Shown piece after piece: positions 10,341-13,402 of a stretch of DNA of 20,336 nt. A model generated the notes under the pieces. It worked only from the letters and a program-made list of their open reading frames with translations, was not told the origin of the DNA and made no database searches. Where the stretch lies: positions 1 through 20,336 of IMG/VR virus record IMGVR_UViG_3300006753_000108. One strand, 5' to 3'. This stretch comes from a virus. Both the position numbers and the translations under genes were made by a program. The number at the start of each line of letters is the position of its first letter. Within the stretch, counting starts at the first letter, position 1.

Positions 10341-11828
10341 CTATATTGGATAAAAGAAGAACTTTGTGTTTGGGACAATAATGTGCAAATTTTTTCGAGT
10401 TCTAGTTGCTCCTACGTAGAATACTCGTTTTTCTGCGTCCGGCATTTTAATCATATCTTGATACGTACGATGAGCCATGTCTGTGAATAAAATAACATTA
10501 TCTGCTTCACCCCCTTTTGCCCCATGTATTGTAGAAAGATTTATTCTAGGAGTTTTAGTTATTTTTTCACCCTTGCGTAAAGCAGCTATCATATAAGAAC
10601 GTTCTACTAAACTCATTTTATCAAAAGCTTCGTGCCATATAGCCGTTGTTAGTATTTCAAAATTATCTTTTAAAAATTCTAAAGTGAAGCAACCTTCCTT
10701 TGGAATTTTTGCCATCTTGCCTTTAATATTCCAAATAATGTTTTTAGCTTCTTTAGCATTGCATTCACCTCCTTTTCGTAATTTTTCCCACGCCATTATT
10801 GTGTCTAAAGTAGTTTGATCTACACTCCGGCGTTGTCGTCTTTCGTAAATCAAACCTTCTCTTCGACACTGTTCCTCTACAGGATCTAGGAAAAATGCAT
10901 TTCTAGCTAACACCAACCAGCTTCCCTTATCCATGTTAATATTTTCAGTTGTGGTGTGATAATTTATTCCCCCTTCTTCTTCTTTACTAGCCCATTGTTT
11001 TTCTCTGCGTGTTTTTACTTCTTTTATAATATTTAAAGCAAAATTTTGAATTTTTTGGGGAGTTCTATAACTTTTATTTAAGGTATTCACCTTTCCTTTA
11101 AGATTAATAAAATAATTTATATCTGCCCCTGCCCATTGAAATATGGCCTGATCATCATCTCCAGCTACAATAACTTTTTTTGCTGAAGCCGCCAATTTTT
11201 CAACCATGCGCCACTGGAGTTGACTAAGGTCTTGGGCTTCGTCAATAACCAAAAGATCAAGAGAAGGAGCACCGCCGTCCCCAACAAAACGCTCAAGCAT
11301 ATCAGTGAAATCAAATAAACCGTGAGCAAGCTTAAATTTTTTAAGTCCATTATGCACTCTCTCTATTTCATACCAGCCTAAATCATTAGTATTTGATTTC
11401 CACTGTTTTTCTAAAGACACGCATTTTAATCTAGCTAAAGAAGAAAGAAACAACGCTTTGTCGCCTTTACTGTTTCCGTATATTGTTCCGTCCTCTGAAT
11501 TTATTTTTCCACTAATTCTAAGCCCCATAATATCACCAAATTCTTGATATTTTTTATAATTCATGACATGATTTTTACTTAGTCCTAGCATTCTAAAAGC
11601 CATGCTATGTAAAGTGCGAAAATGAGGTAGTTGTTTTTCTGACAGCATAAAACGATCACGCGCACGTTCTATGGCTTCATTTGCTGCTTTACGAGTAAAA
11701 GCCACAAATCCTATCCTATCCGGTCTTACGCCTTCTTGTAATGCCTTATCCACTTGATCTAATAAAAAAGTTGTTTTTCCGGTTCCTGGTTATGGGGGGC
11801 CGATAATTATTTCTGGACGAAATGTCAT
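10341..11828 (-). CDS. UvrD/Rep-like SF1 helicase, in-frame TAA in Walker A
   Basis: Reading from the ATG at 11828 (AAGGAG 10 nt upstream), the N-terminus is MTFRPEIIIGPP, then TAA (11790-11792), then PGTGKTTFLLDQV in the same frame. The remaining 470 residues from the GTG at 11753 are intact and carry the other SF1A motifs: Ia (FVAFTRKAANEA), DEAQD at 171-175, GDDDQAIFQW (198-207), SYRTP, STIHGAKG and YVGATRTR. Numbering is from that GTG. The stop is flanked by identical CCA codons, and removing TAACCA restores the canonical GPPGTGKT P-loop. A product starting at GTG 11753 would lack the P-loop and could not hydrolyse ATP. Either a recoding event makes the full protein, or the gene is freshly inactivated, or there is a sequencing variant. 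It would normally unwind DNA for replication or recombination. Confidence 0.85.
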
Positions 11829-11866
11829 CGGCCCCAGTCTCCTTCATAATAATCATACGTTTTCAT

Positions 11867-13402
11867 TTACAGTACATCTCCCCCCATATCTGGCAAATTA
11901 AATGAACCCACTTGTTGTTCAGGCTCTGGGATATGCCAAACATTTACCCCTCGGCCGCGAATTTTAAAAAAGTGAGTTTTGCCACCCACAACTTCTGAAT
12001 CTAATTTTGCGCTTATTTGACTTCTTGTATAGTACTTAAAACCATGACGCAAAAGATAAGCTTCAAGATCCTGTAAACGAAAAAATACTCTGGCTAAATT
12101 ATCGTCCTCTGGATCTGTTCCTGTCCAAGGTCTTCCAAGCAATAATTCTTCTCTGTTATTACTGGCTAGTCTACTGTCTGTGGTAAATGAATAAAGTAAC
12201 TCCATAAACTGATCAACTAGCCCTGCCCCTTCTGGTTTATCCAATGGAATACATTTATCCATTAATGATTGAATTAAACTTTGCCATTGTCTTTCTGTTA
12301 CTTTTGGGGGCATGTAATTTAGATTATTCATACAAACTTTTTGAAATTTAAATTGCTGCTGTAATTCTTCCGTAGATAATTCTAGGGTTGTGTTATTTAC
12401 TTCAAGAAACCATACGGGTTGATCCGTGGGTATTTTACGAAGACTATTCATAATAGGTAAGGCTCCCCCACCTATGCCAAATTTTCTTGTTCTGCATATT
12501 GTTGCATTGCAAAAGGCTGAAATAGGCTGATCATTACATCTAAAGTTATAATCTTTTTTGTCTAATTGCTTAATTATAATTTGAACTTCTTTTGAACTCA
12601 GCGGAGGATCCATGTGGTTTTTATTTAATTTTTCAAGTTCTTTTTCCCAACCATCTGGGAATGCTTTTTTGCAATATACTCCTAAAGCAAATAAGCCATT
12701 GTTTCTAGTTCCTTGAGGAAATCCTTGCGCCACTAAACATTGCAAACAAGGCGGACCATCTACCAATGTTTCATTTGCTATTGAAGTTTCTATGGCGTTT
12801 AGTTCTTTAAAAGTTATTCGACTATCCTCAGCATATTTTAAAAAGCTTTCTAGTCGCATAGCCTTGCCTTTTCTATCTAAGGCATAACGAGTTCCGTCAT
12901 TACCCCCGAAATAAGGCATATTTAACCAGTTACCAAGATCCCCTTTGTCCACTAGCACTTTAGATTGCTTTGGAAAAATTTCTGATTTGCCATAGCCAAG
13001 AGAAGCTGCAATTTCAGATAGTTTAATTTGAAGTTCTTTTGCTAAAACTGGGTCACTAAAGAAAATAGCTAAATGACAACCCCCACTTTTTGAACGCAGA
13101 GGTATCATGGGCAGTTTTTGTTTATAGACTCGTAGAGCCAGTGTTTTGATATCTAGGGCATAGTCATCGATATCTATAGCCCCCCAGACACAAAAATTAT
13201 CCCGATTAATTGGAATTATACCAAGATTTTGCTCACCATTTAAGTGAGCTTCCCATAAAGCAATGGTCACAGGTTCTCGCTTAGTAAATGCCTTGCCTTG
13301 TTGTTTTCCGTTTTGGTCTTTTGCATCCGCTAAAATATGTACGCCGTGGGCTTCTTCCATACCGGCGAATAAATTCATCATGCGGTTGGCTAAAGAAGGC
13401 AT
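11867..13402 (-). CDS. Archaeo-eukaryotic-type primase (PrimPol-like) with PriCT domain
   Basis: 511 residues. The catalytic AEP core is at about 20-190: motif I GAIDIDD (Asp77/Asp79), motif II SKSGGCHL (His110), then EIFPKQ (Glu141) and GNWLNMPYFGG (157-167), an arrangement I associate with TOTE-type and phage AEPs. Residues about 230-290 (RNNGLFALGVYCKK, later MDPPLSSKEV) fit a PriCT-1 domain. Cysteines 219, 222, 289, 298 and 303 cluster around it and could bind zinc or an iron-sulfur cluster. The C-terminal 190 residues are not recognised; no helicase motifs occur. It should lay primers for the polymerase, with helicases supplied by neighbouring genes. The start follows a G-run and the hairpin at 13420-13444. 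Confidence 0.85.
   Translation of the reverse strand: MPSLANRMMNLFAGMEEAHGVHILADAKDQNGKQQGKAFTKREPVTIALWEAHLNGEQNLGIIPINRDNFCVWGAIDIDDYALDIKTLALRVYKQKLPMIPLRSKSGGCHLAIFFSDPVLAKELQIKLSEIAASLGYGKSEIFPKQSKVLVDKGDLGNWLNMPYFGGNDGTRYALDRKGKAMRLESFLKYAEDSRITFKELNAIETSIANETLVDGPPCLQCLVAQGFPQGTRNNGLFALGVYCKKAFPDGWEKELEKLNKNHMDPPLSSKEVQIIIKQLDKKDYNFRCNDQPISAFCNATICRTRKFGIGGGALPIMNSLRKIPTDQPVWFLEVNNTTLELSTEELQQQFKFQKVCMNNLNYMPPKVTERQWQSLIQSLMDKCIPLDKPEGAGLVDQFMELLYSFTTDSRLASNNREELLLGRPWTGTDPEDDNLARVFFRLQDLEAYLLRHGFKYYTRSQISAKLDSEVVGGKTHFFKIRGRGVNVWHIPEPEQQVGSFNLPDMGGDVL

Follow-up and report, generated by a model that had tools for sequence, protein, structure and literature searches.

The window analysed here, a stretch of 20,336 nucleotides from a virus (IMG/VR record IMGVR_UViG_3300006753_000108), carries a helicase gene whose Walker A motif is split by an in-frame stop codon lying between two identical proline codons. 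The question raised by this locus is whether the helicase has been lost, or whether it is still produced by ribosomes that pass over the interruption.

The window helicase and its split Walker A motif

The gene product is a PcrA/UvrD-like superfamily 1 helicase, which matches UvrD-helicase, UvrD_C and related families in Pfam and the structures of PcrA/UvrD in PDB sequence searches. A gene encoding an archaeo-eukaryotic-type primase (Pfam) lies upstream of it, at 11867-13402. The minus strand of the window reads ATG ACA TTT CGT CCA GAA ATA ATT ATC GGC CCC CCA TAA CCA GGA ACC GGA AAA ACA, and its translation gives MTFRPEIIIGPP, then a stop, then PGTGKTTFLL... The CCA TAA CCA interruption of the P-loop is exactly as described in the first-pass annotation (11795-11787, minus strand): six extra bases, TAACCA, split this UvrD/PcrA-like helicase at the Walker A motif (M-TFRPEIIIGPP-TAA-P-GTGKT), and the frame that follows the landing CCA is open over 482 codons, up to the TAG at 10341 (-). 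The features of the locus are listed in Table 1.

TAA, TAG and TGA all serve as ordinary stops in the other genes of the window; there is therefore no code change, and a recoded stop is ruled out. The longest ordinary call of the ORF caller starts at GTG 11753, past the Walker A motif, so that the gene would be annotated as truncated.

Table 1. Positions of the features of the window helicase, and of the int-alpA RNAs found at other loci
Feature	Position	Strand	Remark
Shine-Dalgarno sequence AAGGAG	11839..11844	-	ahead of the hairpin by 3 nt and of the start codon by 10 nt
Hairpin 5' arm, GGGGCCGATGA	11825..11835	-	contains the start codon; stem score 11
Start codon ATG of the helicase	11826..11828	-	sole in-frame start of the 5' segment
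Hairpin 3' arm, TTATCGGCCCC	11796..11806	-	pairs with the 5' arm; also encodes I-G-P of Walker A
Take-off codon CCA (Pro 12)	11793..11795	-	read from sequence
In-frame stop TAA	11790..11792	-	read from sequence
Landing codon CCA	11787..11789	-	read from sequence
Remainder of Walker A, G-T-G-K-T	11772..11786	-	in frame after the hop
Downstream helicase frame	10341..11786	-	481 codons and stop TAG; no start codon before the P-loop
int-alpA RNA (RF02996)	L345:587-651		overlaps the HNH ORF or lies immediately 5' of it
int-alpA RNA (RF02996)	L332:2167-2231		overlaps the HNH ORF or lies immediately 5' of it
int-alpA RNA (RF02996)	L335:13913-13978		overlaps the HNH ORF or lies immediately 5' of it
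int-alpA RNA (RF02996)	L068:4634-4699		overlaps the HNH ORF or lies immediately 5' of it
int-alpA RNA (RF02996)	L351:6283-6345		overlaps the HNH ORF or lies immediately 5' of it
int-alpA RNA (RF02996)	L075:949-1014		overlaps the HNH ORF or lies immediately 5' of it
int-alpA RNA (RF02996)	L077:6044-6109		overlaps the HNH ORF or lies immediately 5' of it
int-alpA RNA (RF02996)	L089:8813-8878		overlaps the HNH ORF or lies immediately 5' of it

A family of helicases interrupted at the same nucleotide

A similarity scan of IMG/VR gave 66 relatives, and all those that reach the P-loop are uninterrupted except L067, which has eight extra bases at the insertion place of the window (CCA TGA TG CCG). 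IMG/VR was also scanned for a pattern (GPP, a stop, 0-30 nt, GTGKT), and once for P-loop variants. Counted as distinct junction sequences, 40 helicase genes, the window included, have an insert at the identical nucleotide, while about 270 relatives are uninterrupted. A look at related phages, which had been proposed as a check, yielded 39 further distinct genes interrupted at this place. Such a number of interruptions at one nucleotide is not due to chance, and it excludes a sequence error as the origin of the stop in the window.

The insert is 6 nt long in 36 of the 40 genes, 8 nt in two (L086/L067 and L150), 7 nt in one (L156) and 13 nt in one (L076). A stop codon follows GPP immediately in every case (TGA in 16 loci, TAA in 15, TAG in 9). 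TRR was required at the stop position, and TGG was allowed in the first two pattern scans, neither of which gave a helicase with TGG in place of the stop. Similarly, no stop-free insert is present at this point in a set of 307 loci, found mostly via protein similarity, whose members are either uninterrupted or have a stop-containing insert. The stop is therefore not an artefact of the search pattern. An exact scan of IMG/VR for GGNCCNCCNTAACCN... gave no match, because most loci have other stops or CTN.

The P-loop scans covered any gene with the pattern, though no credible case outside helicases was obtained; there is therefore no sign of the module in other GPPGTGKT genes. The pattern matches L071, L074, L079, L080, L082, L085, L087, L093, L153 and L155 are due to chance or are unrelated, and L172, the sole match in a pattern scan of genome contigs, is not a helicase, has closed frames and is also a chance match. 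All of the 15 isolate or genome regions of cultured phages (L157-L171) have uninterrupted P-loops, and five of them encode a different helicase, of the AVAG[SA]GK type. The record of Providencia phage Kokobel2 (MW145138.1; L167:1501-2316, at the record end) stops inside an unannotated helicase gene of this kind.

Take-off and landing codons

tRNA-Pro (anticodon 3'-GGN-5') can pair with CCN and, via a G-U pair, with CUN. The landing triplet is C[C/T]N in all 36 six-nt loci (CTA in 11, CCA in 9, CTG in 9, CCG in 3, CTT in 3 and CCT in 1), and its third base is that of the take-off codon in 22 of them (permutation p 5e-5) and differs in the other 14. The scan for P-loop variants demanded CY, and the fair test of the landing codon is therefore provided by the earlier scans, which put no condition on it: the triplet is CYN in 17/17 loci, the window included, with a matched third base in 14 (p 3e-4). 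The first-pass annotation had considered matched take-off and landing codons to be a requirement. The third base does tend to match, but identity is not required, since CTN is the commonest landing codon. The landing codons of the two 8-nt loci are CCG and TCG.

The take-off codon is CCG in 23 of the 40 loci, CCT in 9, CCA in 8 and never CCC; 63 of 263 intact relatives have CCC at this position. The absence of CCC points to the UGG isoacceptor of tRNA-Pro, but this argument is limited in strength because the loci are not independent.

At the expected landing site of the 7-nt and 13-nt loci, no triplet would allow tRNA-Pro to re-pair. Both contain CCU UGA C (L156:3362-3391 and L076:3868-3903), a context of RF2-type +1 shifts, and the frame is open after such a shift, with two extra residues in L156 (GPP-DD-GTGKT) and four in L076 (GPP-DGKT-GTGKT). 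These two genes may use +1 frameshifting instead of a hop, either as unexplained exceptions or as a second mode.

In stop-codon readthrough, an amino acid would be inserted at the TAA and the helicase would have two extra residues (GPPxPGTGKT). Most inserts, being 6 nt long, would keep the frame, and a stop codon followed by C is a leaky context. However, the 7-, 8- and 13-nt inserts put the product of readthrough out of frame, which excludes plain readthrough as the common mechanism. In the intact relatives, GPP and GTGKT are never separated by additional residues. Readthrough also gives no reason for the constant C[C/T]N triplet after the stop, or for the link of its third base to that of the take-off codon. 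Readthrough is therefore improbable. The comparison, through the insert lengths, the landing triplets and the match of their third base, favours the tRNA-Pro hop from CCA to CCA over the TAA that had been put forward from the window alone.

A hairpin and a Shine-Dalgarno sequence upstream of the stop

The first-pass annotation missed a strong hairpin, a Shine-Dalgarno (SD) sequence just upstream of it, and a link to mobile HNH genes. The window hairpin (GGGGCCGATGA/TTATCGGCCCC) has a folding energy of -24.6 kcal/mol (z -3.7), and 0/200 shuffles fold as well. A hairpin is found in all 38 module loci with enough upstream sequence (stem score 8-19), L069 and L334 being left out of this count because they are cut by the contig end; the mean stem score is 4.7 in 271 intact relatives, with a maximum of 9. 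The 3' arm is the coding sequence directly before the take-off codon, for example GTC TTC GGC CC (V-F-G-P), and the 5' arm is its complement, which begins about 20-50 nt upstream of the GGN codon.

Among 27 distinct hairpins, 97% of the pair cells are standard and 18 cells have changes on both sides, with compensatory changes in 5 of the 10 base pairs of the stem. None of 500 shuffles reaches any of these measures, a count which is not a probability since the hairpin sequences are related. Sliding the arms destroys the pairing.

Of the 38 loci, 36 have an SD sequence of at least 4 nt in the 16 nt that precede the hairpin; in 34 loci it is at least 5 nt long, which is the case in 7.5% of random 16-nt windows. 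In many loci (e.g., L068, L072, L149 and L344) the start codon is upstream of the SD sequence, which is therefore within the gene and is not an initiation signal. Folding of the hairpin leaves 3 nt between the SD sequence of the window and the take-off codon, and about 9 nt up to the landing codon; in most loci the SD spacing in the folded state is 1-4 nt.

The hairpin/SD module is absent from the intact relatives. Indeed, L174, an intact gene 87% identical to L089, lacks the hairpin. A take-off stem-loop around the take-off codon amounts to weak local stems in some loci, which is expected from the CCN...GGN codons.

Selection on the downstream frame

The frames downstream of the interruption are open over about 460-960 codons, even though the 7-, 8- and 13-nt inserts change the frame, and in pairs of module-bearing genes their omega is mostly 0.04-0.3, which indicates purifying selection. 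In-frame starts past the P-loop are at positions that vary between loci, and all would give a protein without Walker A. It therefore appears that the helicase must be made through the interruption.

It has to be considered that the insert, as an endonuclease scar or an immunity mutation, may have killed the helicase, and the HNH elements that adjoin many copies (see below) could profit from a destroyed target. The open and selected downstream frames make such a knock-out very unlikely, and a covarying hairpin, an SD sequence and a codon-matched landing site are not what a scar would leave. The alternative first kept for the window, a fresh inactivation or a sequence error, is excluded by conservation and purifying selection.

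Internal initiation is just as unlikely. The SD sequence and the folded hairpin would set the ribosome on the landing codon, or on a later GTG or ATG start, as in the hairpin-shortened initiation sites of T4. The geometry is like that of folded initiation regions, including the distance to the landing codon in the folded window. However, the landing codons (CCA, CTA, CTG, CCG, CTT, CCT) are mostly not start codons, the later starts are those of variable position past the P-loop, and the 5' segments retain an in-frame start and a coded [V/I]-[F/L]-G-P-P. RF2-type +1 frameshifting as the general mechanism, the hop being a mere appearance, is extremely unlikely: it opens the frame after CCU UGA C in L156 and L076, and the SD spacing in most folded loci resembles the 3 nt of RF2, but a +1 shift leaves the helicase frame in 6-nt inserts and thus applies to two loci at most.

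Proposed mechanism of the stop-hop

The translation of the window helicase mRNA very probably involves a programmed bypass, or stop-hop, with a hairpin and SD module, tolerance of G-U pairing at landing and an association with HNH genes. Comparison of the loci shows the module, its covariation, its patchy spread, the purifying selection downstream and, in many loci, the HNH neighbour. From the restoration of GPPGTGKT and this selection, we infer the hop itself, in which the hairpin and the SD sequence would have driving roles.

The ribosome would initiate at the ATG at 11828, melt the hairpin and read 12 codons up to the proline CCA, at which point TAA would occupy the A site. The peptidyl-tRNA-Pro would then detach, move 6 nt forward and re-pair at the second CCA, and decoding would resume at GGA to give the exact GPPGTGKT. 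The hairpin, by re-forming behind the ribosome, and AAGGAG, by pairing with 16S rRNA, would both drive the hop and guide it. The 5' stem-loop of T4 gene 60 is considered as a motor that pulls the mRNA while its pairing is completed behind the ribosome, and +1 shifts are driven by an SD sequence that ends 3 nt short of the shift codon (PMC5009743). The SD spacing in the folded window, 3 nt to take-off and 9 nt to landing, fits both ideas.

Association with HNH elements

An HNH-type ORF adjoins the helicase in 15 of the 40 module loci. It is directly upstream of the helicase in L068, L075, L077, L089, L091, L154, L331, L332, L335, L343, L345, L348, L351 and L352, and a NUMOD4/HNH-like ORF occupies this position in L086. 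HNH_3 (PF13392) was detected in 9/9 tested ORFs of the main type, including those of L331 and L332. The int-alpA RNA (Rfam RF02996) is present at the 5' end of the element in 8 of the 9 scanned loci of the main HNH type, the exception being L154. No HNH ORF is found beside the window helicase, nor beside many other module loci.

A quick tree (LG+G4) was built from 105 helicases; the distribution of the module on it requires 23 changes, and well supported branches force at least 14 of these. L331, which has the module, and L183, which does not, have 97% of 3,500 nt in common, counted from a point shortly ahead of the P-loop; they differ in the segment upstream of the P-loop, which holds the HNH-type ORF in L331, L332 and L335. 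The phages of the pairs L331/L183, L332/L184 and L345/L349 are near-identical or related, but one member lacks the module or the adjoining HNH gene of the other, which makes them good natural donor/recipient pairs.

An ORF beside its target and a patchy presence, as for a free-standing HNH homing element, are found in L331/L183 and L332/L184, but not at the window itself. A group I intron or an intein was rejected: the window, L067/L086 and the HNH loci have no Rfam intron match, there is no motif support, and the gap is 6 nt.

The stop-hop module was apparently spread by mobile HNH homing-endonuclease genes. It would belong to, or have been left behind by, HNH elements that target the conserved P-loop DNA, which the HNH protein presumably cleaves. 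The site would be shielded from the enzyme by its 6-nt interruption, and the hop would keep the helicase alive. There is a precedent in T4, where mobA is inserted in the topoisomerase gene and the site may be protected by the 50-nt segment that gene 60 bypasses (PMC5009743, PMC2988022). It is rather probable that an RNA leader (int-alpA), an HNH endonuclease and the stop-hop module form a mobile element with the Walker A sequence of phage helicases as its point of entry. The element would be tolerated since translation skips the interruption, and the window carries the stop-hop module alone.

Comparison with known systems

The closest relative in principle is T4 gene 60, with its 50-nt bypass and mobA. 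In both systems a stop comes right after the take-off codon, the same tRNA pairs at landing, an upstream 5' stem-loop is thought to pull the mRNA, an SD-like sequence is present, and an HNH homing endonuclease is linked to the segment inserted in a replication gene (PMC5009743, PMC2988022). Unlike gene 60, which uses tRNA-Gly over 50 nt, the helicase module has a gap of 6 (7, 8 or 13) nt, and would use tRNA-Pro and allow G-U at landing. Its SD sequence is before the hairpin, compared to 6 nt before the landing codon in gene 60, and it occurs at many loci in many phages instead of one. The nascent-peptide signal of gene 60, 25-30 residues before take-off, has no counterpart: the window has 12 residues before take-off, which rules out a nascent peptide acting in the exit tunnel as in gene 60, and several loci have about 9-12, too few for a long signal of this kind. 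The helicase module is therefore a variant and not a member of the gene 60 type.

The bypass elements of Magnusiomyces capitatus mitochondria are also many short inserts removed at translation, with take-off and landing codons that are not always matched (PMC5009743), but they act on the mitochondrial ribosome and are seemingly independent of mRNA context, whereas the helicase module is structured and found in phages. The terminase of Streptomyces phage Hau3, a likely case of bypass, similarly has a short gap with an SD sequence 5' of it (PMC5009743); it centres on a UUA codon, and the helicase hop on a stop. The RF2 (prfB) +1 frameshift shares an SD sequence close upstream of the P-site codon and a stop in the A site, but it is a regulatory shift of a single nucleotide without a hairpin.

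According to a review of 2016, in-frame stop-hops had no known natural example (PMC5009743). The stop-hops in E. coli, as that review presents them (its reference 54), are synthetic and laboratory-made, while the helicase loci are natural. No report of bypassing in phage helicases was found in open-access papers. The helicases would be the first natural stop-hop family, stop-hops being otherwise those of synthetic constructs.

Significance

Programmed bypassing has so far rested on one well-studied case on the bacterial ribosome, T4 gene 60, and on mitochondria. The helicases provide 40 natural versions of a compact module (SD sequence, hairpin, Pro-stop-Pro/Leu), whose built-in variation makes the take-off and landing requirements directly testable. 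The module also gives a search rule for more cases, and gene finders miss stop-hop genes such as the window helicase.

If such a mobile element exists, the hop would serve homing as introns do at the RNA level and inteins at the protein level. This suggests a third way for homing elements to sit inside essential codons without killing the gene.
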